From positions 1-64,000 of the forward strand of contig CAMYKZ010000003.1 of NCBI GenBank assembly GCA_947259045.1: 64,000 nucleotides of DNA. The letters are read 5' to 3'. Positions within the stretch are counted from its first letter, which is position 1. Every line of letters starts with the position of its first letter. Below are positions 16,078 through 32,378 of this stretch, piece after piece. The position numbers and the translations under genes were made by a program. The notes under the pieces were generated by a model that saw only the letters and a list, made by a program, of their open reading frames with translations, was not told where the DNA came from and ran no database searches. The stretch is from an uncultured Afifella sp. GTDB lineage: Bacteria > Pseudomonadota > Alphaproteobacteria > Rhizobiales > Afifellaceae.

Positions 16078-16434
16078 TTGCCTGTTGAGCGAAAAAAGTT
16101 GGAATCGGTAAAATTGAGCAGCAACGAATTTGAGCCATCGCCCCGACGCCACCGGATCCGGATCGGGTCGAGGTCAATCAATCTGCCGGACAGCCGCTAT
16201 TGGAGGATGGGGTTCGGTTGCGCCCTCATACTATCCGGAATTCTGGGGTTTTTGCCGATCCTGGGATTCTGGATGATTCCGCTTGGGCTGTTTGTCCTGT
16301 CGATCGATCTGCACTGGGCGCGCCGGTTGCGGCGGCGGGCAGGGGTCTGGCTGACCCGCAAATTTCCGAAACTGGCTGAAAAAGAAAACGGCAGGTCGCA
16401 AACACGCTTGCCGGACGATGACGAATCCGGATAG
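16078..16434 (+). CDS. Conserved small membrane protein
   Basis: Up to 118 residues with one long hydrophobic stretch at about residues 45-75 (GCALILSGILGFLPILGFWM plus following) that may form two membrane passes, and a basic segment HWARRLRRRAGVWLTR after it. Small proteins with this LPVLGFWMIPLGL-type core and Arg-rich tail are widespread in rhizobia without an established function. The open frame starts with TTG at 16078; later TTG codons are also possible, so the N-terminus is uncertain. It lies between tRNA-Asn and the cobalamin riboswitch. Confidence 0.65.
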   Translation: MPVERKKLESVKLSSNEFEPSPRRHRIRIGSRSINLPDSRYWRMGFGCALILSGILGFLPILGFWMIPLGLFVLSIDLHWARRLRRRAGVWLTRKFPKLAEKENGRSQTRLPDDDESG

Positions 16435-16440
16435 TGTGGC

Positions 16441-16640
16441 GGATTGGTGAAGGTTCCCCGCCGACGCTGAGCGTTTGGGGATCAAAAGGGAACATGGTAT
16501 GAGGCGACCCAATTCGGGGCCTTGAAACCATGGCTGCCCCCGCAACTGTGAGCGGTTAGTTCCTCCGCACGATGCCACCGGAAACGGGAAGGCGCGGCAG
16601 GGACGGTGATCCGCAAGCCAGGAGACCTGCCTCACCTCAA
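16441..16640 (+). ncRNA. Cobalamin (B12) riboswitch
   Basis: The region has the conserved elements in order: GGGAACATGGT (about 16489), CCGCAACTGTGAGCGG (about 16540-16555), GGAAACGGGAAGG (about 16580) and the B12 box GCAAGCCAGGAGACCTGCC ending near 16631. The outer stem may be GGTGAAGG (about 16446) with CCTCACC. It would bind adenosylcobalamin and shut off the downstream cbtB-cbtA-cobUWNOQ operon when cobalamin is plentiful. Its 3' end is about 40 bases before cbtB, close enough to mask the RBS. Confidence 0.93.
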
Positions 16641-16678
16641 CCCCGAACGCCGTCGGTGGGACGGTGAAGGAGATTGAT

Positions 16679-16870: not shown

Positions 16871-17518
16871 ATGTTTCGCGCGCTGATTTTCAGCGCCGTG
16901 GCGGCAGGCTGCGTCGGCGGCCTGCTGGTTTCCGTCTTTCAATGGGCGGTGGTGACACCTCTGATCCTTGAAGCGGAGGTGTTCGAAAACGGCGTCACGG
17001 CAAGCCACGGTTCGACCGGGTTAGACTTTTCACGCACTGCACTGACAGCGCTGGCGTCCGTCGTCTACGCGTCCGGACTGGCGCTAGTTCTGCTGGGCCT
17101 GATGACAATTACCGGCGAAAAGATCCAAATGCGTTCCTGCCTGGCATGGGGTCTGGCAGGATTTTTTGCCGTCGGCCTCGCGCCGGCGCTTGGTTTGCCG
17201 CCTGTCGTTCCGGGCATTCCGGAAGCGCCCTTGCTGGACCGGCAGATCTGGTGGTTCGGAACGGTTTTGGCGACCGGGTTCGGGCTGTGGGTTATGCTGC
17301 GCCGGACAGGTCCTGGATGGATTGTCGCCGGTTTCGCTGCCATTATCGCCCCGCATCTGATCGGCGCGCCGCATGTCGCACTGGTTGCGACAGAGGTTCC
17401 GGCGGCTTTGGCTGCCCACTTCGTATCCGCGTCGCTGGTTGCCAGTCTGCTGTTGTGGATATGCGTTTCCGGCGTTGCCGGCCTGGCCTTCGAGCGATTT
17501 GGAGACGCCGGCGAATGA
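16871..17518 (+). CDS. cbtA: Cobalt transporter subunit CbtA
   Basis: A 215-residue membrane protein with about five hydrophobic segments (residues 5-28, 55-80, 90-115, 128-145, 158-205). It starts MFRALIFSAVAAGCVGGLL, typical of CbtA, and contains the conserved LGLPPVVPG-P region. CbtA is the proposed cobalt permease paired with CbtB. It follows cbtB by 15 bases and its stop overlaps the cobU start (ATGA), linking cobalt import to cobalamin synthesis. Confidence 0.92.
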   Translation: MFRALIFSAVAAGCVGGLLVSVFQWAVVTPLILEAEVFENGVTASHGSTGLDFSRTALTALASVVYASGLALVLLGLMTITGEKIQMRSCLAWGLAGFFAVGLAPALGLPPVVPGIPEAPLLDRQIWWFGTVLATGFGLWVMLRRTGPGWIVAGFAAIIAPHLIGAPHVALVATEVPAALAAHFVSASLVASLLLWICVSGVAGLAFERFGDAGE

Positions 17519-18042
17519 CCGGCACCTCCGTTCTGCTGCTCGGCGGCGCGAGGTCCGGCAAGAGCCATTATGCGGAAGACATCGCAGGGCGAAGCGGACT
17601 TGAGAAGATCTATTTCGCGACAGCGCAGGCGTTCGACGACGAAATGCGCGAGCGGATTGACGGGCACAAAGCGCGGCGCGGCGCGGACTGGACAAATTTT
17701 GATGTGCCGCTCGATCTGGCGACTGCCCTGGAAGAACGGACTGCGGCGGAGAAAGTGATCCTGGTTGATTGCCTGACTTTGTGGCTGAGCAATCATCTGT
17801 TGAATGAAAACGATGTCGAGAGCGAAAGCCTGCGGCTTGCCGAATGCGTAACAAAACTGTCGGGCCTGACATTGTTCGTTTCCAACGAGGTCGGATCGGG
17901 GATTGTTCCCGACAATGCGTTGAGCCGGCGGTTCCGGGATGCCCAGGGCCGGTTGAACCAGATGATTGCGAAAGCCTGCGACAGCGTCGTGCTGGTGGTT
18001 GCGGGCCTGCCGCTGATGCTGAAAGGAAAACAGTTATTATGA
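17515..18042 (+). CDS. cobU: Adenosylcobinamide kinase / adenosylcobinamide-phosphate guanylyltransferase
   Basis: A 175-residue bifunctional enzyme (also called CobP) that phosphorylates adenosylcobinamide and then attaches GMP. The P-loop is GGARSGKS (residues 10-17) and the region GHKARRGADW holds the histidine that is guanylylated in the family. DCLTLWLSNHL and SNEVGSGIVP are further conserved stretches. ATG at 17515 overlaps the cbtA stop; the longer open frame upstream is only read-through of cbtA in another frame. Its stop overlaps the cobW start. Confidence 0.94.
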   Translation: MTGTSVLLLGGARSGKSHYAEDIAGRSGLEKIYFATAQAFDDEMRERIDGHKARRGADWTNFDVPLDLATALEERTAAEKVILVDCLTLWLSNHLLNENDVESESLRLAECVTKLSGLTLFVSNEVGSGIVPDNALSRRFRDAQGRLNQMIAKACDSVVLVVAGLPLMLKGKQLL

Positions 18043-19070
18043 GTTTGTCTGATACCGGACGCATTCCGGCGACGATTGTGACCGGGTTCCTGGGTGCAGG
18101 AAAAACCACCCTGATCCAGACCCTTCTGCGAGAGGCAAATGGCCGCCGCATTGCGCTGATCGTCAACGAATTCGGTGATGTCGGCTTTGACGGCAAGGTG
18201 TTGGCCGATTGCGGTGTCGAGGGCTGCAGTGAAGACGAAATCGTCGAACTGGCCAACGGCTGTATCTGCTGCACGGTTGCCGATGATTTTCTGCCGGCCA
18301 TGGAGGCGCTTCTGGCCCGGGACGAACCGCCGGAGCATATTGTCATCGAAACGTCCGGCCTTGCCCTGCCGCAACCGCTGGTGAAGGCCTTCGGCTGGCC
18401 GGGAGTTCGAAACCGGGTCACGGTCGACGGCGTGGTGACAATCGTCGACGGACTGGCGGTGTCGCAAGGACGGGTCGCCCATGACGAGGCCGAGGTTGCC
18501 CGACAGCGCGCCGCAGATGACGCGCTCGACCATGATGATCCGATTGAGGAATTGTTTGAGGACCAACTGCGCTGTGCCGATCTGGTCATCATTTCCAAGA
18601 CTGACCTTGTCGACGAAGACGGGCTTGAACGGGTTCGGGCGACAATCGACCGCGATCGCCGGCCGCAGGCGAAAGTCCTGACCAAGCCTGATGGCAATCA
18701 TCTGATCGCTGCCGTGTTTGGTATCGGCGCAGAAGCGGAAGCAGATCGCGAAACCCGCCAGAGCCACCATGAACTGGCGGGCGCCGAAGACCATGAGCAT
18801 GATGACTTCACCAGTTTCTCGCTTCCGGTCAATTTCCCTGACCGCGAAACTGCCATTGCCCGTATCAACTCAGCGCTGGCACTGGACGGTATTCTTCGCA
18901 TCAAGGGGCTGGCGGCGATAGACGGCAAAACAGCGCCACTGGCGGTTCAGGGTGTCGGGTCCCGGCTGGAGACTTGGTTCGCAGAGAGCGGCAATTTCGC
19001 GGCGCAGCTTGTCGTCATCGGGCTGGCGGACCTCGACAGACCGGCTGTCGAAGCCGAATTGGCGGGATAG
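18039..19070 (+). CDS. cobW: Cobalamin biosynthesis GTPase CobW
   Basis: A 343-residue G3E-family GTPase. It has the P-loop GFLGAGKTTL (near residue 17), the metal-binding CxCC motif in NGCICCTV, the NKxD-like SKTDLVD, and a His/Asp-rich loop near residues 240-255 (HHELAGAEDHEHDD). CobW proteins are thought to deliver cobalt to the CobN chelatase. ATG at 18039 overlaps the cobU stop. The gene order cobU-cobW-cobN is standard in alphaproteobacteria. Confidence 0.94.
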   Translation: MSLSDTGRIPATIVTGFLGAGKTTLIQTLLREANGRRIALIVNEFGDVGFDGKVLADCGVEGCSEDEIVELANGCICCTVADDFLPAMEALLARDEPPEHIVIETSGLALPQPLVKAFGWPGVRNRVTVDGVVTIVDGLAVSQGRVAHDEAEVARQRAADDALDHDDPIEELFEDQLRCADLVIISKTDLVDEDGLERVRATIDRDRRPQAKVLTKPDGNHLIAAVFGIGAEAEADRETRQSHHELAGAEDHEHDDFTSFSLPVNFPDRETAIARINSALALDGILRIKGLAAIDGKTAPLAVQGVGSRLETWFAESGNFAAQLVVIGLADLDRPAVEAELAG

Positions 19071-19071
19071 A

Positions 19072-22000
19072 TTGCATATTCTCACCGGACAGACGCGGGG
19101 ATTGGACGCCGGTGAAGAGGCGGTCGACCTGCAGCAAAGCAGCGGTGATATTGTCATCCTGAGCGCGGCCGATACGGAGATCGCGGGACTTGCAGCAGCA
19201 CGGCGGATGCTGCCCGATGACTTCGCCTCGGTGCGGCTTGCCAACTGGATGGCGCTGGCCCATCCCTATTCGGTTGATCTTTACTGCGAACAGGTGATTT
19301 CCGGCGCGAAGCTGGTTGTGTTGCGGCTTCTGGGCGGCGTGTCCTACTGGCGCTACGGTGTAGAGGAAACGCTGAGACTTTGCCGTGGCTCAAACATTCC
19401 TGTCACCGTCCTTTCAGGCGACACGAACTGGGATGAAACGCTTGCAGCGGAAGGGACGATGCCGCTCGAACAGAGCCGGGTATTGTTTGACTATTTCGCC
19501 GAGGGCGGATCCGGCAATCTGAAAAACGCGCTGAACTATTGCCGGCATCTGATCGGGCAGGGGCCGGCGCCCGAACCGGCGCTGATATTGCCCACGGCAG
19601 GCCGGTATTGTTGGGCCAAGGCCGGGTCTGCAGATGCGCCCGATCCGGATGCGTCAGATTCAGATGCCCCAGGCGTCGCGATCGTATTTTACCGGGCGCT
19701 GGTGCAATCGGGTCAGACCGGCCCGGTTGATGCGCTGTGTGAAGCCTTGTCGTCTCGCGGAACAAGGCCGATCCCGGTCTTTGTCTCCAGTCTGAAAAAC
19801 GCTGATGATGCCAGAATGCTGTCGGATATCTTCAACCAGGGTCGGCCGTCTCTGGTTCTGAACGCGACGGCCTTTGCTTTGAGCAAGGCCGGCTCGGCGT
19901 TTTCGGGAACGGTTCTGGATAACGGTGCGAGACCGGTGATGCAGATCACCTTCGCCGGCGTAGCCGAAGCACAGTGGGCGGCAAGCAGTCAGGGCTTGTC
20001 ACCCAAAGACCTGACGATGAACGTCGTCCTGCCGGAACTGGACGGCCGGATCATCTCGCGGGCGGTGTCGTTCAAGGAGGACGGCGACTGGGATGACCTG
20101 ACCGAGTGCCGGCCTGTGCGGTTTGTGGCAAAGCCGGACAGGGTCTGGTTTGTAGCCGAACTGGCGCAGGCGTGGGTCCGGCTGAACCGCAAGCCCAATG
20201 GCGAAAAATCCGTTGCCATCGTTTTGTCCAACTACCCGAACCGCGATGGCCGGATCGCCAATGGCGTCGGCCTGGATGCACCGGCGTCCACCATCAACCT
20301 TGTCCGGGCGATGGAGGCCGCAGGGTATCGAATCGACGATGCGCCGGAAAATTCAGCGGATCTGATGACCCTGATTTTGGCGGGCCGCACCAACAGCGGG
20401 TCGGCTGCAGGGGCAAATGCTTTCAGCGAAAGACTGGGGCTGGACGATTACGTCCGCAACTTCGCAATGTTGCCGGACGCAATAAGATCGGAGGTCAACA
20501 ATCAATGGGGCGCGCCGAAGACCGATCCGTTTTTCCTGAACGGTGGTTTTGAGCTTCCGGTGATCCGGTTCGGAAATCTTGTTGTCGGAATTCAGCCGGC
20601 GCGCGGCTATAATGTTGATCCGAAAGCAACGTACCACAGCCCGGATCTGGTTCCGCCGCACGGTTATTTTGCCTTCTATTTCTGGCTTCGCCGGTCATTC
20701 GGCGCGGATGCGATCGTTCACATGGGCAAACACGGCAATCTGGAATGGCTGCCGGGCAAGGCGCTGGCGCTTTCCTCGTCCTGTTATCCGGAAGCGGCTC
20801 TGGGGCCGATGCCATTGGTCTATCCGTTTATCGTCAATGATCCGGGCGAGGGCGCGCAGGCCAAGCGACGGTCGTCTGCGGTTATCGTCGATCATCTGAT
20901 GCCGGCATTGGCACGGGCAGAGAGCCACGGCGCTGCAATAGAGCTGGAGCAGCTGATCGACGAATATGCCGGCGCCCAACTGACAGACACTCCGCGTGCG
21001 AATCGGCTTGCAAAGTCTGCGATCGATCTGGCGTGCGAACACGGCTTTGACAAGGATCTTGGGTTCAGCGCCACTGACAATGCCGATCTGGCGCTGACGA
21101 CACTGGACGAGCACCTGTGCGACCTCAAAGAACTGCAGATCCGCGACGGTCTGCATATCCTTGGCCGATCTCCAATGGATGGCCTGCGCAACAGTACGCT
21201 GGTCAGCCTGGCACGGGTGCCGCGTGGCAACAGACCGGGTGACGACTCAATCCTGCGGGCCCTTTCAGCCGACCTCGGATTTCTTCCCTTTGACCCGCTG
21301 GACTGCGACATGGCGGAAACATGGACCAGGCCCAGGGCATCGGCGCTATCGGATCTTTCAGACGGCGTCTGGCGGACAAACGGCGACACGGTGGAGCGGC
21401 TTGAGGCAATGGCGGACTTGCTGGTCGCCGGCGAACGTGCGCCGGATGAGGCATGGGCGAAGACCAATTCCGTGCTTGAATCCGTGGCAAATGACATCGC
21501 ACCGTCGCTTGACGGATCCGGCGCCGCGGAAATCGTATCAGTCCTGACTGCGCTTGAGGGGAAGTTCGTGCTGCCTGGTCCCTCCGGTGCACCCTCGCGC
21601 GGGCGCCCTGATTGTCTGCCGACCGGCCGGAATTTCTTTTCCGTCGATGTGCGCGCAGTTCCAACGCCGACAGCCTGGGATCTGGGCTGGCGCTCGGCAA
21701 ATCTTCTGGCGGAACGTTATTTCCAGGATGAAGGCGAATGGCCAAAGGCGATCGCCCTGACCGCCTGGGGCACGTCGAACATGCGCACCGGCGGTGATGA
21801 CATTGCCCAGGCACTGGCGTTGATCGGTGCACGTCCGGTCTGGCAGCAAGCGTCCGGCCGGGTCACCGGTATCGAAGTCATTCCGCTTTCAGAACTCAAA
21901 CGGCCCCGGGTCGATGTCACGCTCCGGATTTCTGGTTTCTTCCGCGATGCTTTCCCGACCCAGATTGCACTGTTTCATGAGGCGGTGCAGGCGATTTCAG

Positions 22001-22815
22001 CTTGTGATGAACCGGACGACGCCAATCCGATTGCAGCCCGAATCCGGACCGACAGCACGGCCATGAGTGGTAATGGCATCTCCGTGGATGATGCTCGAAA
22101 GGCCGCCGCCTTCCGTGTGTTCGGATCGAAGCCGGGTGCCTACGGCGCCGGGTTGCAGGCCTTGATTGACGGGGGGATCTGGTCTGAGCGTTCCGATCTC
22201 GGAGCAGCATTTCTGGAATGGTCTGCCTATGCTTACGGCGGCGGCGCTGAGGGTACCGGCGCCCGGGACCTTCTGGAAAGCCGGCTGAAGGTTACGGACG
22301 CTATTGTGCACAACCAGGACAATCGAGAGCACGACATTCTCGACTCCGACGATTATTACCAGTTTCAGGGAGGGCTTGCCTCCGCCGTTGAGAGCCTGAA
22401 GGGCGAAGCGCCGCAGATCTATCACAACGACCATTCGCGGCCCGAGCGCCCGGTGATCCGTGCGCTCGACGAGGAAATGGCCCGTGTCGTGCGCGGCCGC
22501 GCCGCCAATCCGAAATGGATCGCCGGCGTCATGCGGCATGGATACAAAGGCGCGTTCGAAATGGCGGCGACAGTCGATTACCTGTTTGCGTTTGCGGCAA
22601 GTACGAATGCCGTGCAATCGCATCATTTCGACCAGCTCTATGACGCCTATCTGGCCGACGATACGGTCAGGGATTTCATCGAACACCATAACAGGCCGGC
22701 GCTGAATGAGATGGCGGACCGGTTCCGCGAGGCGATCGACCGCGGCCTGTGGGCGCCGCGGCGCAACAGCACCTATAATGAATTGATCAACCTGACCGGT
22801 GGAGCATTGTCATGA
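19072..22815 (+). CDS. cobN: Cobaltochelatase subunit CobN
   Basis: The large subunit (1247 residues) of the aerobic ATP-dependent cobalt chelatase, which inserts cobalt into hydrogenobyrinic acid a,c-diamide together with CobS and CobT (not in the window). Conserved stretches include VRLANWMALAHPYSVD, HMGKHGNLEWLPGK (about residue 555) and MRHGYKGAFEMAATVDYLFAF near the C-terminus. The start is TTG at 19072, one base after the cobW stop, with GGCGGGA upstream; the product then begins MHILTGQTRGLD, matching the usual CobN N-terminus. An ATG-type start 40 codons upstream would lie inside cobW. Its stop overlaps the cobO start. Confidence 0.94.
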   Translation: MHILTGQTRGLDAGEEAVDLQQSSGDIVILSAADTEIAGLAAARRMLPDDFASVRLANWMALAHPYSVDLYCEQVISGAKLVVLRLLGGVSYWRYGVEETLRLCRGSNIPVTVLSGDTNWDETLAAEGTMPLEQSRVLFDYFAEGGSGNLKNALNYCRHLIGQGPAPEPALILPTAGRYCWAKAGSADAPDPDASDSDAPGVAIVFYRALVQSGQTGPVDALCEALSSRGTRPIPVFVSSLKNADDARMLSDIFNQGRPSLVLNATAFALSKAGSAFSGTVLDNGARPVMQITFAGVAEAQWAASSQGLSPKDLTMNVVLPELDGRIISRAVSFKEDGDWDDLTECRPVRFVAKPDRVWFVAELAQAWVRLNRKPNGEKSVAIVLSNYPNRDGRIANGVGLDAPASTINLVRAMEAAGYRIDDAPENSADLMTLILAGRTNSGSAAGANAFSERLGLDDYVRNFAMLPDAIRSEVNNQWGAPKTDPFFLNGGFELPVIRFGNLVVGIQPARGYNVDPKATYHSPDLVPPHGYFAFYFWLRRSFGADAIVHMGKHGNLEWLPGKALALSSSCYPEAALGPMPLVYPFIVNDPGEGAQAKRRSSAVIVDHLMPALARAESHGAAIELEQLIDEYAGAQLTDTPRANRLAKSAIDLACEHGFDKDLGFSATDNADLALTTLDEHLCDLKELQIRDGLHILGRSPMDGLRNSTLVSLARVPRGNRPGDDSILRALSADLGFLPFDPLDCDMAETWTRPRASALSDLSDGVWRTNGDTVERLEAMADLLVAGERAPDEAWAKTNSVLESVANDIAPSLDGSGAAEIVSVLTALEGKFVLPGPSGAPSRGRPDCLPTGRNFFSVDVRAVPTPTAWDLGWRSANLLAERYFQDEGEWPKAIALTAWGTSNMRTGGDDIAQALALIGARPVWQQASGRVTGIEVIPLSELKRPRVDVTLRISGFFRDAFPTQIALFHEAVQAISACDEPDDANPIAARIRTDSTAMSGNGISVDDARKAAAFRVFGSKPGAYGAGLQALIDGGIWSERSDLGAAFLEWSAYAYGGGAEGTGARDLLESRLKVTDAIVHNQDNREHDILDSDDYYQFQGGLASAVESLKGEAPQIYHNDHSRPERPVIRALDEEMARVVRGRAANPKWIAGVMRHGYKGAFEMAATVDYLFAFAASTNAVQSHHFDQLYDAYLADDTVRDFIEHHNRPALNEMADRFREAIDRGLWAPRRNSTYNELINLTGGALS

Positions 22816-23435
22816 AAAAATCCGAAATGAGCGAATCCGAACTGGATGCGCGCCATGCTGAAAAGATGCGCCGCAAGAAGGAAGCCCGCGACAAGATTAT
22901 CGCCACCAAGACGGTCGAGAAGGGTTTGCTGATCGTCCATACCGGCAAGGGCAAGGGCAAATCCACCGCTGCATTCGGCCTCGTTTTCCGGGCGCTTGGA
23001 AACGGCATGAAGGTCGGCATCGTGCAGTTCGTAAAAGGCAAATGGGAAACAGGCGAACGGGCGGCGCTCGACAGGTTCGGCGACCAGGTGACGATCAATA
23101 CGATGGGGGAGGGTTTCACCTGGGAAACCCAGGACAGGCAGCGCGACATCGAAGCCGCGCGTCAGGCCTGGGAGACGGCAAAGAAACTGATCGCCGATGA
23201 TGACTATCAGATGGTTCTGCTCGATGAACTCAATATTGTTCTGCGTTACGATTATCTTGATGTGGCCGAAATCGTCGAGACGCTGAAATCGAAGCCTGAG
23301 ATGAAACATGTCATCGTCACGGGCCGCAACGCCAAGGACGAACTGATCGAGGCGGCCGATCTGGTGACCGACATGACCCAGATCAAACATCCGTTCCGCT
23401 CCGGCGTCAAAGCGCAAGTCGGAATTGAGTTCTGA
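22812..23435 (+). CDS. cobO: Cob(I)yrinic acid a,c-diamide adenosyltransferase
   Basis: A 207-residue CobA/CobO-type corrinoid adenosyltransferase that attaches the 5'-deoxyadenosyl group to cobalt. The modified P-loop [15 protein letters not shown] lies near residues 37-51; [12 protein letters not shown] and [13 protein letters not shown] are the other family markers. ATG overlaps the cobN stop (ATGA), and cobQ follows directly. It acts between CobN and CobQ in the aerobic pathway, consistent with the gene order. Confidence 0.95.
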
Positions 23436-23442
23436 TGATCCG

Positions 23443-24924
23443 ATGGGCACGCAACCGGATCCCGCCGAACCTGCCTGCCTGATGGTTCAGGGCACGGGGT
23501 CAAATGTCGGCAAATCGGTTATCGTTGCCGGCCTCGCCCGTGCCTATGCCAATCAGGGGCTGAACGTGCGGCCGTTCAAACCGCAGAACATGTCAAACAA
23601 TGCCGGCGTCACTGAGGACGGCGGTGAGATCGGCCGCGCACAGATGACCCAGGCGCTTGCCGCGCGTGTTGCGCCGTCCGTGCATATGAACCCGGTCCTT
23701 CTGAAGCCGGAATCGGAAACCGGCGCGCAGGTGATCGTTCAGGGCCGGCGGTTTGCCACCATGAAGGCGCGTGAATATGGCGCGCGGAAGCCGGAATTGA
23801 TGGGGGCGGTGTTGGACAGTTTCGGCCGGCTTGGAAAAAACGCCGACCTGGTGCTGGTTGAAGGCGCGGGATCGCCGGCTGAAATCAATCTGCGCGATGG
23901 CGACATTGCCAATATGGGGTTTGCCGAAGCGGCGGATGTGCCGGTCATACTGGTCGGCGATATCGATCGCGGCGGGGTGATTGCAAGCATCGTCGGGACC
24001 CATGCTGTCCTGCCGGATGGTGAGCGGCAACGGATCAGGGGGTTCGTGATCAACCGGTTTCGCGGCGATGTCAGCCTCTTCGACGATGGCGTGCGGGAAA
24101 TAGAAGCGCGAACAGGCTGGCCGTGCCTCGGTGTCGTGCCGCATTTCGCGGATGCAGTGAAACTTCCGGCTGAAGATGTTCTGGGGCTGGAGGAGGGGCG
24201 CTCCGCCAATTCCGCCCGGTTGCGGATCGTCGTTCCACAGCTTGGCCGCATTGCGAACTTTGACGATCTGGATCCGTTGCGGGCCGAACCGTCTGTCGAT
24301 CTGATCATAGTGCCGCCGGGCGCGGCCCTGCCGGGTGACGCGGATCTTGTGCTTCTTCCAGGCTCAAAATCGACCATCGCCGATCTGCGGCATTTGCGCG
24401 AGCAGGGCTGGGACATTGATATCGCCGCCCATGTCAGGCGCGGCGGCTCCGTTCTCGGTGTCTGTGGCGGGTATCAGATGCTGGGCGTGCGTGTCAGTGA
24501 CCCGGACGGTATCGAGGGCAAGCCGGGCGACATGACCGAAGGCCTCGGCCTGCTGGAGGTTGAGACAGTTCTGATCGGCGAAAAGACAACAATGTCCGTG
24601 CAGGGTGTCCACCTGGCCAGCGGCGAAGTTCTGTCGGGATATGAAATCCATATCGGCCGGACGCAGGGGACTGATTGTGCGCGTCCGTTCGCCCGGATCG
24701 AAGATCGTTTCGATGGCGCCCAGTCGTCAGATGGGACAATCGCCGGAACCTATCTGCATGGCATCTTTGCCTCGGATTCATTTCGCCGCGCGTTTCTCGG
24801 CGCATCCTGTTCTGCGCTGGATTATCGAACGGGCGTCGACATGGCGCTCGACGCTCTCGCGGTCCATCTTGCGGCCCATCTCGATCTGAAGCAGCTGCTT
24901 CAGATCGCGCAAAAAGCGCTTTGA
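23443..24924 (+). CDS. cobQ: Cobyric acid synthase CobQ
   Basis: A 493-residue glutamine-dependent amidotransferase that amidates four side chains of adenosylcobyrinic acid a,c-diamide. The N-terminal dethiobiotin-synthetase-like domain starts [18 protein letters not shown] and has [11 protein letters not shown]. The C-terminal type-1 glutaminase domain has the nucleophile in [10 protein letters not shown] and a distal GTYLHGIF. I chose the ATG at 23443; a TTG at 23425 in the same frame, overlapping cobO, is also possible. Last gene of the plus-strand cob operon, ending 3 bases from convergent cobD. Confidence 0.94.
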
Positions 24925-24927
24925 GTT

Positions 24928-25902
24928 TCAGATCATCAGAAGCTGGGCGGCAATCAGGGCGATCAGCATGAACAGCCATGCCGTGCCGATAAGCCCAAGC
25001 GCCGCATTGATGTGAACATGGGAAACCTTGCGCTCGCCACTGGCATTCAGCCACGGCGCCTGCAGTTTCCGGTTGCCGTAGGAGCGCGGACCTCCGAGCG
25101 CAATATCAAGGGCGGCCGCCGTTGCCGCTTCCGGCCAGCCGGCGTTGGGGGAGGCGTGGCTCGATGCGTCGCGGGCAATAATATGGCCTGCATGGATCAG
25201 CGATCCGCCCTGCAGAGGCGCCGCCAGGGCGATCAGGCCAGCAGAAATTCTGGCCGGAAAATAGTTCAGGAAATCATCCAGCCGGGCAGATGCAAAGCCG
25301 AACTGGAGGTAGTTCTCGTTTTTATGGCCGATCATCGAATCGGCGGTATTGACCAGTTTGTAAACAAGCAATCCCGGCAGGCCGAATATCAGGTAAAACA
25401 ACACCGGCGCGACCGTTCCATCGGAAAAGTTCTCCGCTGCCGATTCGATCGCAGCTCTTGATATATCGGCCTCCTGCATGGCGTTGACATCGCGGCCGAC
25501 GATCCGGGAGACGGCCTCCCGACCGGCCTTGACGCCGGCCTGCTGCAATCGGTCGGCGACGGTCTGCACATGATCGATCAGACTCTTTTGCGCAATCAGC
25601 ATGGAAACCAGAACCGTTTCGAGAAAAGCGAAATAGCTGAAGGTTTCTGTCAGCAAGGTTATTGCCGCACCAATCAGCACAGCGGCGGCTGCGAGGCCGA
25701 CAATGGCAATGACCCCGTTACGCCGCCGGACAGGATCGCTCATATCCGGCCGATTGAGGGTGTTGTCGAGCCAGCCGATGGCGAACCCGAACAGCACGAC
25801 CGGATGTTTCAGCCGGGACCATAGCCAATCCGGGTCGCCAATGATCCGGTCTATGATCAATGCAAGGATGAGGATGCTGATAGCCTGGTCGCTGAACAGC
25901 AT
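24928..25902 (-). CDS. cobD: Adenosylcobinamide-phosphate synthase CobD (CbiB)
   Basis: A 324-residue integral membrane protein that joins (R)-1-amino-2-propanol O-phosphate to adenosylcobyric acid. The CbiB pattern is visible: ALIIDRIIGDPDWLW at the N-terminus, ISRAAIESAAENFSDG-VAPV near residue 150, and GHKNENYLQFG near 205. Several membrane segments lie at residues 50-80, 85-105 and 295-322. It is the minus-strand partner of the cob locus; the ATG lies 3 bases after the stop of the short cobC-like frame. Confidence 0.93.
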   Translation of the reverse strand: MLFSDQAISILILALIIDRIIGDPDWLWSRLKHPVVLFGFAIGWLDNTLNRPDMSDPVRRRNGVIAIVGLAAAAVLIGAAITLLTETFSYFAFLETVLVSMLIAQKSLIDHVQTVADRLQQAGVKAGREAVSRIVGRDVNAMQEADISRAAIESAAENFSDGTVAPVLFYLIFGLPGLLVYKLVNTADSMIGHKNENYLQFGFASARLDDFLNYFPARISAGLIALAAPLQGGSLIHAGHIIARDASSHASPNAGWPEAATAAALDIALGGPRSYGNRKLQAPWLNASGERKVSHVHINAALGLIGTAWLFMLIALIAAQLLMI

Positions 25903-25905
25903 CGC

Positions 25906-26088
25906 TCAGCCCGGTATGACGGAAAGTGCGGCCCGAAGGCGGCCAAACGCCGAAACGGGCCAGTCGCCTGGAAATCCTTCTATTGGCGGGTCGCCAATCG
26001 GATTGATCCCTGTCGACAGATCGAGCCTGTCGTCGGCTGCAAAGCCGTAGGTATCGATGGCCCGTGCCAGATCTCCGCCATGCAGCAT
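25906..26088 (-). pseudogene. cobC: Truncated cobC (threonine-phosphate decarboxylase) remnant
   Basis: A 60-codon reading frame whose product matches the N-terminus of CobC: MLHGGDLARAIDTYG followed by LDLSTGINPIG, the substrate-loop signature of this PLP aminotransferase-fold enzyme. A full CobC has about 330 residues, yet here the frame stops with TGA 3 bases before cobD. No other reading frame in or near cobD encodes the missing catalytic part, so this is a deletion rather than a simple frameshift. The last residues (FGRLRAALSVIPG) might derive from the C-terminus, which would suggest an internal deletion, but that is a guess. CobC normally makes aminopropanol phosphate for CobD. Confidence 0.72.
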
Positions 26089-26219
26089 TTCTGTTATCCG
26101 GTCTATCCATACAATCTGATGAACGGCCTATCAGGGAATCGCGAAAATCGCCAATCGGAATGTTTCCATGACATCTGTGGCTTGAGATGATGTTCGACCT
26201 CTGCTAACGAACCGCTGCT

Positions 26220-26293
26220 GGCGTCGTGGCGGAGTGGTTACGCAGCGGATTGCAAATCCGTGCACCCCGGTTCGATTCCGGGCGACGCCTCCA
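26220..26293 (+). tRNA. tRNA-Cys (GCA)
   Basis: GGCGTCG pairs with CGACGCC, discriminator T, encoded CCA at 26291-26293. The anticodon stem-loop CGGATTGCAAATCCG has GCA, and the T arm GGTTCGATTCC is intact. 74 bases with CCA, single copy, no neighbouring tRNA. Confidence 0.97.
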
Positions 26294-26403
26294 GCAATCC
26301 CCGAATTTTCAATGCCGGTTTCCGGCCGGACGGCACGCTTGCCGCCGGCGGATGATCACGATAAAGATCAGGAATATCTTATTTGCCCAGACAGAAAGCG
26401 CCG

Positions 26404-27069
26404 ATGTCCGATTTCTCGCAACTACGCCTCAACATGGTGGACAATCAGGTCCGGCCGAGCGACGTGACCGACCGCAAACTGATCGCTGCGATGCTGGAAA
26501 TTCCACGCGATCTTTTTGTACCCTCGGCGGAGCGGCCGCTGGCCTATGTTGACCGCGATATTCGTGTCGGTTCCGACGAGCATGGCGACAGGTTCCTGAT
26601 TGCGCCGGCCGGCCTGGCGCGCCTGGTGCAGGCGCTTGAACTGACGCCGAACGATGTGGTGCTCGATCTTGCCTGTAATACCGGATATTCATCGGCGATC
26701 CTGGCTCGGCTTGCGGGTTCCGTGGTAGCTGTCGATCAGGACCCGGAATTGGTACGGATTGCAGAGGCCAATCTTGCCGGCCTTGAGATCGACAATGTTG
26801 CCGTCGTGCAGTCCAGCCTTGCAGACGGATATCCCTCTGAGGGTCCCTATGACGGGATTCTTGTCGCAGCCGGCGTCGATTTCGTCCCCGATGCGTTGAC
26901 CGGACAATTGAGTGATAATGGCCGTCTGGTGGTCGTTGAGGTGGATCAGAGACCGGGCCGGGCCGTTCTATATGAGCGTTCCGGTTCTACCACTGCCAGC
27001 CGGCCGCTGTTCGATCTTGCAGCGCCGGTATTGGCCGATTTCCGCCGGAAACCGGAATTCGCGTTCTGA
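26404..27069 (+). CDS. Pcm-like protein-L-isoaspartate O-methyltransferase family protein (first copy)
   Basis: A 221-residue class I SAM methyltransferase of the Pcm family. It begins MSDFSQLRLNMVDNQVRPSD, typical of the rhizobial paralogue found next to tolC. Motif I is DLACNTGYSS rather than the classical Pcm form, followed by VVAVDQDPELV. It may repair isoaspartyl proteins, or it may have another target. ATG at 26404 is preferred over the frame start at 26383. The order pcm-like, tolC, popZ, valS is a familiar one in Rhizobiales. A second, more canonical Pcm lies at 49780. Confidence 0.85.
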   Translation: MSDFSQLRLNMVDNQVRPSDVTDRKLIAAMLEIPRDLFVPSAERPLAYVDRDIRVGSDEHGDRFLIAPAGLARLVQALELTPNDVVLDLACNTGYSSAILARLAGSVVAVDQDPELVRIAEANLAGLEIDNVAVVQSSLADGYPSEGPYDGILVAAGVDFVPDALTGQLSDNGRLVVVEVDQRPGRAVLYERSGSTTASRPLFDLAAPVLADFRRKPEFAF

Positions 27070-27202
27070 TGCTGTTGCATTTCCGCCGCGGTGGCCGTTA
27101 ATCGGTTGGATTTACACATTCTTTGATTGCCTGCGTTACTGTGGTCGGATTATCTGTTGGGTAACCTTTTACAGCGTATCCGATTTGCAGGGCGGGGGAG
27201 CC

Positions 27203-28570
27203 ATGATTCGGCTGAGTTTCTCGATTTTGATTTTCGTGGTTTGGAGCGGATTCGGCTCGCCCGCTTCTGCGGAGTCGCTTTCTGAAGCGCTTGCCGCTGC
27301 CTACCAGAATAATCCGTCGCTGAACGTTGCACGGGCTCGGACCCGGGCGGTCGATGAGAATATTCCCATCGCCAGATCGTCTATCTTGCCGAATGTGTCG
27401 GGCTCCGCATCGGCAACTTCGATAGCGCGTCGTTCCCGGTCAGCAGGTTTCGGAAGCAATCTGACAACGGAAACGGATGCGGCTGTTGGCGTCACCGCAA
27501 CGCAGAACCTGTTTCGCGGATTCCGCACGAAAAACGCATTGCGCGAGGCTAAATCGTCTGTGCTGGCAAGTCGGGAAGAATTGCGCAGCGTCGTGCAGGA
27601 CGTTCTCGCATCTGCGGCTGAAGTCTACATGAATGTGCTGCGCGATCAGGCGCTTCTGCGGTTGAGCCAGCGCAATGTCGGATTTCTGCAGGAACAATTG
27701 CGTGCGGCGCAGGACCGGTTTGAGGTTGGAGAGAATACCCGGACGGATGTTGCCCAGACGCAGGCCCGGCTCGCCGCTGCCCAGTCCGACGTCAGCGTCG
27801 TGCGCGCCAACCTGAATGCCAGCCGTGCGGTTTACCGGCAGATTATCGGCAATGATCCGGGTCGTCTCAGGCTGAGTTTTCCCTACACAAAGACGCTGCC
27901 GGGTTCCCTGAGCGCAGCCATTGCGTCCGGGGAAGATCTTCATCCCGACATTCTGGTCGCGGTTCACGATGCGGACGCTGCCGCCTATCTGGTGAAGCAG
28001 GTCGAGGGCGAACTGCTGCCGACCGTCAGTGTGGAGGGCAATGTGCAAACGTCTTTCGGCATTGATGACGCGGAATATAACAATTCTGCGTCAATTACAG
28101 GGCGGGTGTCCATCCCGATCTATCAGGGCGGCGGCGTTTCCGCTCGTGTCCGGCAGGCGAAGGAAAATCTCGGCTTGTCCAGGATACAGATCGATGTTTC
28201 CAGGGTGCAGGTTCGCGCAGCTGTTGTTTCCGCCTGGGGTGATCTTGATGCGGCAAAGGCGGTGACCATATCTGCGGTCGCGCAGGTCAAGTCATCGCAA
28301 ATCGCGCTCGACGGTGTCCAGGAAGAACAGCGTGTCGGCCAGCGCACAACGCTCGACGTGCTGGATGCGCAGCAGGAATTGCTTGATGCCCAGGTCAATC
28401 AGGTGCTTGCACAGCGCGACAGGATTGTTGCTTCATTCAATCTGATTGCTGCAATAGGGCGCTTGAATGAGGATGTACTCGGTCTGTCCGTCGCTCGTTA
28501 CGATCCCAAGCAGCATCATAAGGCGGTCAAGGACAAATGGTTCGGATTGCGGACGCCTGACGGACGGTGA
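27203..28570 (+). CDS. tolC: TolC-family outer-membrane channel protein
   Basis: A 455-residue outer-membrane factor for type I secretion and drug efflux. Signal peptide at residues 1-24 (LSFSILIFVVWSGFGSPASA). Two related halves form the TolC barrel-plus-helix repeat: LSEALAAAYQNNPSL, TATQNLFRGFRTK, VYMNVLRDQALL, then ISIPIYQGGG-like VSIPIYQGGGVSARVRQAK and VLDAQQELLDAQVN. The ATG at 27203 is preceded by GGGGGAG only 2 bases away, so translation may be inefficient; the frame is open upstream but encodes no signal-like sequence there. It probably works with inner-membrane pumps encoded elsewhere. Confidence 0.92.
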   Translation: MIRLSFSILIFVVWSGFGSPASAESLSEALAAAYQNNPSLNVARARTRAVDENIPIARSSILPNVSGSASATSIARRSRSAGFGSNLTTETDAAVGVTATQNLFRGFRTKNALREAKSSVLASREELRSVVQDVLASAAEVYMNVLRDQALLRLSQRNVGFLQEQLRAAQDRFEVGENTRTDVAQTQARLAAAQSDVSVVRANLNASRAVYRQIIGNDPGRLRLSFPYTKTLPGSLSAAIASGEDLHPDILVAVHDADAAAYLVKQVEGELLPTVSVEGNVQTSFGIDDAEYNNSASITGRVSIPIYQGGGVSARVRQAKENLGLSRIQIDVSRVQVRAAVVSAWGDLDAAKAVTISAVAQVKSSQIALDGVQEEQRVGQRTTLDVLDAQQELLDAQVNQVLAQRDRIVASFNLIAAIGRLNEDVLGLSVARYDPKQHHKAVKDKWFGLRTPDGR

Positions 28571-28704
28571 CGGGCGGCTGTCTTTTCTGTGAGAACCTTT
28601 CTCCCGATATAGGAACATTTTCTTAACGGTCTTGGGTTCATGTAATATTGCTGGGATTCGGGCGCGAATCGGGCATATTGCAGATATCCAAAGGGACCTG
28701 GAAA

Positions 28705-29541
28705 ATGGGCAATCCAAGCGCAGCACAAGAACCATCGATGGAAGAGATCCTGGCCTCGATTCGTCAGATCATTTCAGAAGACGGCGACGGTGCAAATCAA
28801 GATAAAGACGACGCTTCGGCAGATAAAGCCGCCGAACCGGATGCGATTTCCGATCCTGTCGAGGCGACAGCGGACCTCTCGCAGGACGATGCCGACAGCG
28901 AACCGTCTGAACCGGAAGATTCTTCCGAACAGCCGGATGCAGAACCTTTCGAAACCGCTTCGGTGACGGAGCCGGAACCGTCAGACTCGCGCAGTGCATT
29001 TGAAACCATGGACAGTTCGGATGATGACGAGGAGGCTGCGCCCGATGATCTCATTGACACTGGACCTTATGAAAACCCGTTCGATACCTTTTCCGAAAAG
29101 TCAAAGAAATCTGAGGCGGCGAATATCGAGACCGCCCTGGTAGAGGAGGCTCACTCAGAAACGCCTGAGGTTGCCGAGCCTGAAGTTGTTGCCGAACTTG
29201 AACCTGAACCTGAAGCACCTGCCGTTCAGTCTTTTGCTGAGACCGGTGGTTCCAATTCGATTGTTGAAACAGAAAGCCCTGCCATGTCTGCATCTGCACC
29301 CAAGCCTGCCGAATATGAGAGTGATGAAAAACTGATTTCGCCTGAATCCGGCGCCAGTGTTGCGAATGCATTCAGCGCATTGACGCACACAATCCTGTCC
29401 CAGAATGCCCGCACCCTTGATGATCTTGTCAGCGACATGCTGCAGCCGATGCTGAAAGAGTGGCTTGACGAAAATCTGCCGACTCTGGTGGAGAGGATGG
29501 TCAAGCAGGAGATCGACAGGATGGCCCGCGGCGGCCGTTAA
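28705..29541 (+). CDS. popZ: Polar organizing protein PopZ (DUF2497)
   Basis: A 278-residue protein with the PopZ layout. Residues 10-28 form the N-terminal helix (EPSMEEILASIRQIISEDG) that binds client proteins. Residues 30-200 are disordered and very acidic (Glu, Asp, Pro, Ser rich). Residues 215-278 form the C-terminal oligomerisation helices (VANAFSALTHTILS, LVSDMLQPMLKEWLDENLP, MVKQEIDRMARGGR). PopZ forms a polar matrix that anchors the chromosome origin and cell-cycle regulators. ATG at 28705. A strong terminator follows, separating it from valS. Confidence 0.92.
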   Translation: MGNPSAAQEPSMEEILASIRQIISEDGDGANQDKDDASADKAAEPDAISDPVEATADLSQDDADSEPSEPEDSSEQPDAEPFETASVTEPEPSDSRSAFETMDSSDDDEEAAPDDLIDTGPYENPFDTFSEKSKKSEAANIETALVEEAHSETPEVAEPEVVAELEPEPEAPAVQSFAETGGSNSIVETESPAMSASAPKPAEYESDEKLISPESGASVANAFSALTHTILSQNARTLDDLVSDMLQPMLKEWLDENLPTLVERMVKQEIDRMARGGR

Positions 29542-29566
29542 TCCTCCAGCGAAATTTCAGATCAAG

Positions 29567-29596
29567 GCGCCGCGGTTCACGCGGCGCTTTTTCTTT
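29567..29596 (+). terminator. Rho-independent terminator after popZ
   Basis: GCGCCGCG (29567-29574), GTTCA, CGCGGCGC (29580-29587), then TTTTTCTTTTT. A textbook intrinsic terminator 25 bases past the popZ stop, so valS is transcribed separately. Confidence 0.9.
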
Positions 29597-29669
29597 TTGT
29601 GCAATCTGTTGACAGGCCTGCTGCTGCGCGCTTAACCGGCAGTCGCCATGTTTCTATGAAAAGATGATA

Positions 29670-32378
29670 ATGCTGGACAAATCATACGACGCTGCGCGCG
29701 TCGAACCGCTTATTCGCGAGCGTTGGGAAGACGCAGATGCATTCCGCGCCGGTGCAGGGGCAGCGGCCGACGCGGACCCCTATTGTATTGTCATTCCACC
29801 GCCGAACGTGACCGGTTCGCTTCATATGGGGCATGCGCTCAACAACACACTGCAGGATGTCCTCGTACGCTTTGAGCGGATGCGCGGCCGAAATGTGCTT
29901 TGGCAACCGGGCATGGACCATGCCGGCATCGCCACGCAGATGGTCGTCGAACGTCAGATGATGGAACGGCAGGAACCGGACCGCAGAGCGATTGGCCGGG
30001 ATGCGTTTGTCGAGAAAATCTGGGAATGGAAAGCCGAATCCGGCGGCATTATCGGCAACCAATTGAAGCGTCTTGGTGCATCGTGCGACTGGTCGCGCGA
30101 GCGATTTACGATGGATGAGGGGCTTTCACGCGCCGTTCTTAAAGTGTTTGTGGAGCTTTATCAGCACGGCCTGATCTATAAGGACAAACGGCTGGTCAAC
30201 TGGGATCCGAAGCTTTTAACGGCAATCTCGGACCTTGAAGTGGAGCAGATGGAGACCAATGGTCATCTCTGGCATTTCAAATACCCGATCGAAGGCGAGA
30301 GTGGCCGGTTCATAAATGTGGCGACGACGCGTCCGGAGACAATGCTTGGCGATACGGGGATTGCCGTGCATCCGGATGACGAACGGTATAAGGAACTTGT
30401 CGGCAGGTTCGCAGTCTTGCCGCTTGTCGGTCGCCGAATTCGGATTGTTGCCGATGAATATGCCGATCCGGAAGCAGGCTCCGGTGCTGTCAAAATTACG
30501 CCCGCGCATGATTTTAACGACTTCGACGTCGGCCGGCGGAACGATCTGCCGGCAATCAGTATCATGGATATAGCAGCGAAAATCACGCTTGCCGACAATA
30601 CTGGGTTCCTTGAGGGCGTGGTTCAATCGGATGAACTGTCGACGACCATTGAGCGTCTTGATGGACTTGATCGGTTTGCAGCCCGAAAAGCGATCGTTGA
30701 GATGATGGACGACAGGGGCCTGCTGGCTGAGGTCGAAGATCATCTCCATTCAATTCCCCATGGCGACAGGGGCGGCGTACCGATCGAACCGTTTTTGACC
30801 GACCAATGGTATGTTGACGCCAAAACACTTGCGAAACCGGCAATTGCCAGTGTTCGCGAAGGGCGCACGGTTTTTGTCCCCAAGAACTGGGAAAAGACCT
30901 ATTTCGACTGGATGGAGAATATCCAGCCCTGGTGCATCTCCCGGCAATTGTGGTGGGGACACAGGATACCGGCCTGGTACGGGCCGGACGGAGAAATATT
31001 TGTCGCGTTGACTGAGGCGGAGGCGGCCAGCGCCGCCGAACAACATTATGGCTCGCCCGTTGAACTGAGGCGGGACGAGGATGTTCTCGATACCTGGTTT
31101 TCGTCAGCGCTGTGGCCGTTTTCGACCCTAGGCTGGCCAGATAAAACTGCGGAACTGGAATCCTACTACCCGACAAATGTGTTGGTCACCGGGTTCGACA
31201 TTATCTTCTTCTGGGTCGCCAGGATGATGATGTTCGGCCTTCAGTTCATGGAAAAAGAGCCTTTCGATACGGTCTATATCCACGCGCTGGTTCGCGACGA
31301 GCACGGCGCGAAAATGTCGAAGTCCAAGGGTAATGTGATCGATCCCCTGCAACTCATCGATGAATATGGCGCAGACGCGCTGCGCTTCACATTATCCGCC
31401 ATGGCGGCTCAGGGGCGGGACATCAAACTGTCGACCGGACGGGTCGCCGGATATCGCAATTTCGGCACGAAACTTTGGAATGCATCCCGGTTCTGCGAGA
31501 TGAACGAATGCCGGCCGGTTGCCGGTTATGATCCCTCAAGCGCTGTTGAGCCGGTCAACCGGTGGATTGCCACCGAAGCGGTCAAGACCGCAGCCGCTGT
31601 CACTGCAGCGATTGAAGGTTACCGCTTCAACGAAGCAGCCGATGCGATCTACCATTTTGTCTGGGACCAGTATTGCGACTGGTATCTGGAACTGATCAAG
31701 CCGGTTCTTTACGGGACCGATGAGACGGCAAAAGCGGAAACCCGCGCCAATGCGGCCTGGGTTCTGGAAGCGATCCTGAAGACCTTGCATCCGTTCATGC
31801 CCTATATCACGGAAGAGCTATGGGCCGCGTTCGGGTTCGGCGAAACCGTTCTGGCGCTCGGCGACTGGCCGGAAAGCGAATTTCAGGATCCGGTCGCGGC
31901 CGCCGACATCAACTGGCTTGTCGATCTTGTCACGGCAATCCGGTCGGTACGCGCGGAGATGAATGTTCCTGCGGCGGCAAAGACGGATCTGGTTCTTGTC
32001 GGCGCAACGAACGAAAACGCTGACAGGCTGTCGCGCCACATGGTGGCGATCCAGCAACTCGCTCGTGTCGAGACGGTGGAGACCGCCGAGACAGCGCCGG
32101 CGGCGTCCGCCCAGGTTCTCGTTGGCGAAGCGACCGCAGCGTTGCCGCTGGAAGGTGTCATCGACTTTGACGCGGAACAACAGCGTCTTGAAAAGGAAAT
32201 TTCGAAGATCGACGGCGAAATTGCCCGGTTGGACAAAAAACTGGGCAACCAGGGTTTTGTGGCCAAGGCGCCGGAATCCGTTGTTGCGGCAGAACGGGCC
32301 AAACGGGAAGATTATGTGTCTAGCCGGGGCAAGCTGGATGCGGCGCTGGCCCGGCTTGCAAATACATTGTCGGGATAG
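29670..32378 (+). CDS. valS: Valyl-tRNA synthetase
   Basis: A 902-residue class Ia aminoacyl-tRNA synthetase. The HIGH motif appears in PPNVTGSLHMGHALNNT (near residue 48) and KMSKS in GAKMSKSKGN (near residue 550). The editing CP1 domain occupies about residues 200-360 (TTRPETMLGDTGIAV) and a C-terminal coiled coil with EKEISKIDGEIARLDKKLGN binds tRNA. Two in-frame ATGs occur; the one at 29670 (MLDKSYDAARVEP) is chosen from RBS spacing and the family N-terminus. It ends 3 bases from a convergent methyltransferase gene. Confidence 0.96.
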   Translation: MLDKSYDAARVEPLIRERWEDADAFRAGAGAAADADPYCIVIPPPNVTGSLHMGHALNNTLQDVLVRFERMRGRNVLWQPGMDHAGIATQMVVERQMMERQEPDRRAIGRDAFVEKIWEWKAESGGIIGNQLKRLGASCDWSRERFTMDEGLSRAVLKVFVELYQHGLIYKDKRLVNWDPKLLTAISDLEVEQMETNGHLWHFKYPIEGESGRFINVATTRPETMLGDTGIAVHPDDERYKELVGRFAVLPLVGRRIRIVADEYADPEAGSGAVKITPAHDFNDFDVGRRNDLPAISIMDIAAKITLADNTGFLEGVVQSDELSTTIERLDGLDRFAARKAIVEMMDDRGLLAEVEDHLHSIPHGDRGGVPIEPFLTDQWYVDAKTLAKPAIASVREGRTVFVPKNWEKTYFDWMENIQPWCISRQLWWGHRIPAWYGPDGEIFVALTEAEAASAAEQHYGSPVELRRDEDVLDTWFSSALWPFSTLGWPDKTAELESYYPTNVLVTGFDIIFFWVARMMMFGLQFMEKEPFDTVYIHALVRDEHGAKMSKSKGNVIDPLQLIDEYGADALRFTLSAMAAQGRDIKLSTGRVAGYRNFGTKLWNASRFCEMNECRPVAGYDPSSAVEPVNRWIATEAVKTAAAVTAAIEGYRFNEAADAIYHFVWDQYCDWYLELIKPVLYGTDETAKAETRANAAWVLEAILKTLHPFMPYITEELWAAFGFGETVLALGDWPESEFQDPVAAADINWLVDLVTAIRSVRAEMNVPAAAKTDLVLVGATNENADRLSRHMVAIQQLARVETVETAETAPAASAQVLVGEATAALPLEGVIDFDAEQQRLEKEISKIDGEIARLDKKLGNQGFVAKAPESVVAAERAKREDYVSSRGKLDAALARLANTLSG

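Follow-up and report, generated by a model that had tools for sequence, protein, structure and literature searches.

A cobC remnant between tRNA-Cys and cbiB in an Afifella cobalamin locus, probably left by in-frame internal deletions

Introduction

In Rhodobacter capsulatus, the part of the published account available to us (PMC6249242) assigns threonine kinase activity to BluE and threonine-phosphate decarboxylase activity to CobC, and equates CobD with CbiB. The closest described system to the short frame reported here is this CobC family (TIGR01140), whose Salmonella member is named CobD. Frame and family share an N-terminal block, the GDWPVS motif, a C-terminal end and a site between tRNA-Cys and cbiB. 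They differ in that the frame lacks about 270 of 330 residues, including the PLP lysine, and on sequence grounds the activity is impossible for it. Cobamide producers without annotated cobD or pduX are described in the accessible part of Shelton et al. 2018 (PMC6461909). As far as that part goes, theirs is a count of annotations, whereas the present case shows the broken gene itself at its site.

We analyzed a stretch of 64,000 nucleotides from an uncultured Afifella sp. (contig CAMYKZ010000003.1 of draft genome GCA_947259045.1), referred to as the window. With a probability of roughly 0.87, we interpret the frame as a dead cobC remnant left by two or more internal deletions that kept the reading frame, in a cell whose linker probably comes from a route that we do not recognise as CobC. 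As a scar of gene loss the remnant is ordinary. Its value is that of a pointer, marking a recent loss in which cobC was dispensed with while earlier and later steps of the pathway were kept.

Results

Structure of the cobC remnant

The cobalamin locus runs on the forward strand from a riboswitch through cbtA, cobP, cobW, cobN, cobO and cobQ. These are followed by cbiB and the remnant on the reverse strand and then by tRNA-Cys, as follows:

16434-16648, forward strand: cobalamin riboswitch (RF00174, 108.5 bits)
16871-17518, forward strand: cbtA, probable cobalt transporter subunit (PF09490, 121.9 bits; TIGR02458, 181.1 bits, just under the cut-off of 182.9)
17146-18042, forward strand: frame holding cobP (kinase/guanylyltransferase) in residues 128-294 (NF004469, 200.7 bits)
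17844-19070, forward strand: frame holding cobW (TIGR02475, 442.3 bits, residues 73-406)
18952-22815, forward strand: cobN, cobaltochelatase subunit (PF02514, 1222.9 bits)
22812-23435, forward strand: cobO, adenosyltransferase
23425-24924, forward strand: cobQ, cobyric acid synthase (NF001989, 632.3 bits)
24928-25902, reverse strand: cobD/cbiB, adenosylcobinamide-phosphate synthase, full length (PF03186, 309.7 bits; TIGR00380, 213.3 bits, cut-off 165.9)
26220-26290, forward strand: tRNA-Cys, marker of the orthologous site tRNA-Cys/cobC/cbiB

Among the further pathway genes searched for, the genome contains cobS, cobT, cobH, cobI, a cbiG-cobJ fusion and cobM.

The remnant is a 60-codon frame at 25906-26088 on the reverse strand, with an ATG start, a TGA stop and a product of 60 residues. 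As originally predicted, it ends just before cobD, with three bases (25903-25905) separating its stop from the cbiB/cobD ATG at 25902. Its parts are listed below with the evidence for each:

25906-26088, reverse strand: cobC remnant, comprising in one frame the beginning of CobC, seven residues from its middle and its end (TIGR01140, CobC HMM, C-terminal alignment, DNA comparison)
25981-26088, reverse strand: N-terminal block, residues 1-36, MLHGGDL...LDLSTGINP... (TIGR01140 match, alignment with relatives)
25948-25968, reverse strand: middle block GDWPVSA, residues 41-47, corresponding to CobC positions 219-225 (CobC HMM, shuffles, DNA comparison)
25906-25947, reverse strand: C-terminal block FGRLRAALSVIPG and stop, resembling FARLEAALASL of the family genome G001 (alignment, shuffles, DNA comparison)

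Residues 3-36 matched positions 1-35 of 331 in the threonine-phosphate decarboxylase model TIGR01140 (30.3 bits, E = 2.3e-7), and a Pfam search of the frame returned no match at E up to 1. The TIGR01140 score is below the curated whole-protein cut-off of 290.55 bits, as are the scores of the seven intact same-family proteins described in the next section, so that membership of the family is not settled by score alone. This N-terminal match was the one originally reported, whereas the accompanying claim that only the N-terminal part survives was too narrow, because a middle motif and the C-terminal end are kept as well. A CobC HMM built from 17 relatives found a second domain in the remnant, GDWPVS, at HMM positions 219-226, and the GDWPVSA block was identical to cobC of G001 at 20 of 21 bases (counted by eye). 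The tail FGRLRAALS aligned with the CobC C-terminus, which reads FARLEAALA in G001.

When the remnant tail was shuffled and scored against a profile of the seven same-family CobC proteins, the whole-tail score was reached by 1 of 2000 shuffles. The best ungapped middle patch was equalled by 0, 1 and 1 of 1000 shuffles at lengths of 7, 9 and 11 residues, respectively. The C-terminal patch was the weakest of the remnant's patches, being equalled by 9 of 5000 shuffles, and its codons agreed poorly with those of G002 (3, 6 and 0 of 9 by codon position). Residues 31-40 aligned poorly, so that the breakpoints in this part are uncertain.

The presence of the N-terminal, middle and C-terminal blocks in their CobC order, together with the tRNA-Cys/cbiB synteny, indicated common descent with cobC. 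Because the three pieces stand in the right order, the frame represents an internally deleted gene rather than a simple truncation; a gene of about 330 codons has shrunk to 60, with both ends and a scrap of the middle retained. Its core would have been lost through at least two in-frame internal deletions, the number and order of which we infer. The SFGK and NPNNPDG stretches of the relatives, which we take to be the PLP-binding lysine and the aminotransferase core, were absent from the remnant, and the 60-residue product contains no lysine. Judged from its sequence and established chemistry, a product without lysine forms no PLP Schiff base and is not a threonine-phosphate decarboxylase; the predicted protein has no PLP site and cannot decarboxylate threonine phosphate. 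A CobC HMM search of positions 20001-31000 of the window at E up to 1e-3 returned the remnant frame as its sole match, in agreement with the original prediction that no nearby frame encodes the catalytic part.

The orthologous site in same-family genomes

CobC was searched for in 41 genomes, consisting of the source genome and 40 relatives, none of which belongs to the source genus. Comparison of the cobC-cobD junction, which had been proposed at the outset, showed a full cobC in seven of the ten other genomes of the family (G001, G002, G005 and G007-G010) and a complete loss in G003 and G006. The seven CobC proteins scored 258-280 bits over positions 1-330 or 1-331 of TIGR01140, far higher than HisC, whose best score in the 41-genome search was 201 bits. 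In all seven genomes the order was tRNA-Cys, cobC, cbiB, and the stop codon of cobC shares bases with the ATG start of cbiB in the sequence ATGA. The TIGR01140 search found no CobC in G003, G004 and G006. In G003 and G006, which belong to one genus, tRNA-Cys is followed by cbiB with no cobC between them, and the best trace of cobC at this site was non-significant (G006, E = 1.8, at about 186-290 of L132, where the flank is 349 bases long).

The source genome thus resembles G003 and G006 in the site, the kept cbiB and the lack of CobC in the genome, and differs from them in that a remnant is found only here. Among close kin, this site carries the full gene in some genomes and has lost it completely in others, and the source genome stands between the two. 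In a CbiB tree of 19 rows, the source genome did not group with G003 and G006 and paired weakly with the long-branched G013, in a part of the tree with poor resolution; the loss may be shared with G003 and G006 or separate from theirs.

Several minor features were noted in these relatives. A six-codon frame, read by eye, is present in G003 (MTEIAQ, L131 2515-2535, reverse strand) and G006 (MTEIAR, L132 332-352, forward strand); its end overlaps the cbiB GTG start, and it may be the last trace of cobC, a leader or a chance frame. In G004, a 94% draft of 430 contigs, CobS and a piece of CbiC were found near a contig start, with no match to CbiB or CobC, a state that reflects either pathway loss or an incomplete draft. 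A second CobC/HisC-like protein is encoded in G007 (L154 2922-3938, reverse strand), and similar matches were found in G005 and G008. The G007 protein scored 227.8 bits to TIGR01140 and 248.9 bits to TIGR01141, below both cut-offs, and its gene adjoins an arylmalonate-decarboxylase-like gene near a UbiD-type gene.

The comparison also bears on whether the true genome holds a full cobC that was collapsed by an assembly or binning artefact. Such an artefact might be suspected in a draft of 275 contigs (4.77 Mb, 96.27% complete) with 5.33% contamination. However, the window is free of N, the contig is 81 kb long with the site about 26 kb into it, and a single frame runs through at least two joins with its start, stop and block order intact. 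In addition, two same-family genomes of one genus are without cobC at the same site. We therefore consider an artefact highly unlikely.

The 60-residue frame could instead encode a small protein with a function of its own, such as a leader peptide whose translation starts cbiB, and be kept in frame by selection. The putative deletions did preserve the frame and the stop beside cbiB, and the ATGA overlap in the seven intact relatives is a layout usual for coupled translation. Shine-Dalgarno matches of the remnant and cbiB were no better than random (-3.3 and -3.0 kcal/mol, respectively, versus a random 22-mer median of -3.3 kcal/mol), which speaks neither for nor against coupling to cbiB. Nevertheless, counterparts were found neither in 24 other cbiB flanks without an adjacent cobC (noise at E 1.4 to 5; three of the flanks are from genomes with CobC elsewhere) nor in 16 further loci of CobC-lacking genomes (E up to 1). 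Furthermore, position 21 is R in the remnant and W in all seven same-family CobC proteins, as may be expected in a decaying gene. A selected small protein is thus very improbable.

Over the first 30 codons, the remnant shared 21-27 first-position, 20-23 second-position and 13-19 third-position bases with the intact genes of the seven relatives. The corresponding values for G001 and G002, compared with each other and with the rest, were 20-25, 19-24 and 11-17. Conservation of the surviving codons is therefore close to that seen among intact cobC genes, indicating that the break is recent relative to the splits from these relatives and bearing out the recent loss that was originally suggested. 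Most of the divergence of the remnant would thus have arisen while cobC still worked.

On the reading of the frame as a dead remnant, an ancestor would have had, like the relatives, a normal cobC of some 330 codons with tRNA-Cys on one side and cbiB on the other. In-frame internal deletions may then have removed roughly CobC positions 37-218 and 226-314 and spared the start, the heptapeptide from the middle and, beside cbiB, the end and its stop codon. The short frame might survive passively or, more speculatively, because translation to its stop helps to start cbiB.

Source of the linker

The original prediction listed a second enzyme copy, another linker source or salvage as ways around the loss. 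When the whole draft genome was searched with TIGR01140, ten places were returned at E up to 10, one of them the remnant, and no other CobC was detected; a second cobC could sit in the missing part of the draft. The best other match (L001, 173.8 bits) proved to be HisC, scoring 295 bits to TIGR01141. By NCBIfam, L002 is a PRK08153-type aminotransferase, L003-L006 are other aminotransferases, and L007 and L008 are MocR-type regulators. The tenth place (G000:C5:9453-9632) scored 16.9 bits to TIGR01140. A shift in the lower-ligand pathway had also been proposed as a cause. This does not fit the roles given for R. capsulatus in the accessible part of PMC6249242, by which CobC serves the aminopropanol linker rather than the lower ligand; cobT, which belongs to the lower-ligand branch, is intact.

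Since genes are kept on both sides of the CobC step, aminopropanol phosphate is probably supplied by another route, one not recognisable as CobC, as seems to be the case in many CbiB-bearing relatives. The many ring and loop genes that were kept suggest another linker source; a second enzyme copy was not detected in the draft genome. From the lack of a recognisable CobC we infer that another route exists, and the chief rival is dependence on outside cobinamide or linker. A cell without linker synthesis might live on salvaged cobinamide, for which CobP, CobT and CobS would suffice, while the rest of its cobalamin locus decays; this would be compatible with the remnant reading. However, cbiB, cobQ, cobO, cobN, cobH, cobI, cbiG-cobJ and cobM are all open and high-scoring, and in such a cell they would serve no purpose and would be expected to decay as well. 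We regard reliance on salvage as unlikely, although it deserves to be kept in mind.

Candidates for a replacement enzyme were examined in several ways. The PRK08153-type aminotransferase (NF006014), which is present here, occurred in 8 of 38 CobC-lacking and 14 of 70 CobC-bearing genomes, indicating no association (Fisher p = 1.0). A route through a GHMP-type threonine kinase (PduX) gained no support, as no second GHMP kinase was found in the nine family genomes searched with PF00288. Each of the nine, CobC-bearing and CobC-lacking, gave one match to this model, which may not see BluE; presumably this single GHMP kinase is the one expected for isoprenoid synthesis. A PduX-like kinase motif had no match in the cbiB loci.

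The neighbours of cbiB were compared twice. The first comparison set 23 loci without an adjacent cobC against 62 others. Among the 62 is L132, a locus without cobC, and among the 23 are two Kaistia and Rhodopseudomonas palustris 2.1.18, whose CobC is encoded elsewhere, and at least 10 that were not checked genome-wide. One family, cluster 21, was skewed (5/23 versus 1/62, Fisher p = 0.005). Its frames occupy the interval between cobQ and cobN, the expected place of cobO, on the strand opposite to these two genes, and gave no Pfam match (two were run); they are probably spurious antisense frames, and we rejected them as a replacement. In the second comparison, between 23 loci from CobC-lacking and 16 from CobC-bearing genomes, the strongest skew was that of CobU/CobP (PF02283; 7/23 versus 1/16, p = 0.11), followed by DUF1636 (PF07845; 5/23 versus 1/16, p = 0.37), and neither was significant. 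Neither comparison yielded a convincing CobC replacement near cbiB. In the CobC-lacking genome G014, a gene for an M81/MlrC-type metallopeptidase lies directly before cbiB (L135 3112-4569, forward strand). G064, from the same genus, also has a homologue close to cbiB.

CobC absence across the order

From the order (Hyphomicrobiales), an even sample of 121 genomes was scored for CobC with TIGR01140 at E up to 1e-60, a threshold that a very divergent CobC could escape. Up to 16 candidates were scored per genome (G046 has 29 and G047 has 26). Within these bounds, CbiB was found in 108 of the 121 genomes and CobC in 70, all of which were CbiB-bearing, while 38 of the 108 genomes with CbiB had no recognisable CobC among the up to 16 candidates scored. 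With CbiC required in addition to CbiB, the fraction without recognisable CobC was 34/100, and 31/93 among those at least 90% complete, again for up to 16 candidates per genome. Genomes entered the draw irrespective of contamination, and in one of the 34 (G127) cbiB is represented only by a fragment at the end of a contig.

These counts indicate that cobC loss is common in the order and that the gap is broader than the source genome. The 34/100 count points to one of two things, a still missing enzyme that makes the B12 linker or widespread reliance on external supplies of linker or cobinamide. Tentatively, and with somewhat more doubt than belief, we propose that much of the order builds complete cobamides with no CobC, either supplying aminopropanol phosphate by an enzyme or route still unrecognised or using a different linker, and that the source lineage may have been caught soon after cobC became dispensable.

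Ten records without cobC beside cbiB, including some metagenome bins and some from outside the order, were searched genome-wide. Three of them (Kaistia dalseonensis, Kaistia granuli and R. palustris 2.1.18) hold CobC elsewhere in the genome. No CobC was found genome-wide in the other seven (best scores 171-197 bits), among them Nisaea denitrificans, Methylopila sp. Yamaguchi and Aurantimonas sp. VKM B-3413. In three controls with an adjacent CobC, the same search recovered CobC as expected.

In another family of the order, cbiB stands beside tRNA-Cys and cobC is missing in G069 and G105 (L157 and L158). Homologues of the genes flanking cbiB in the source genome, PCMT and outer-membrane efflux, are present at both loci. 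G022, from the same genus as these two, has CobC beside cbiB in a different neighbourhood.
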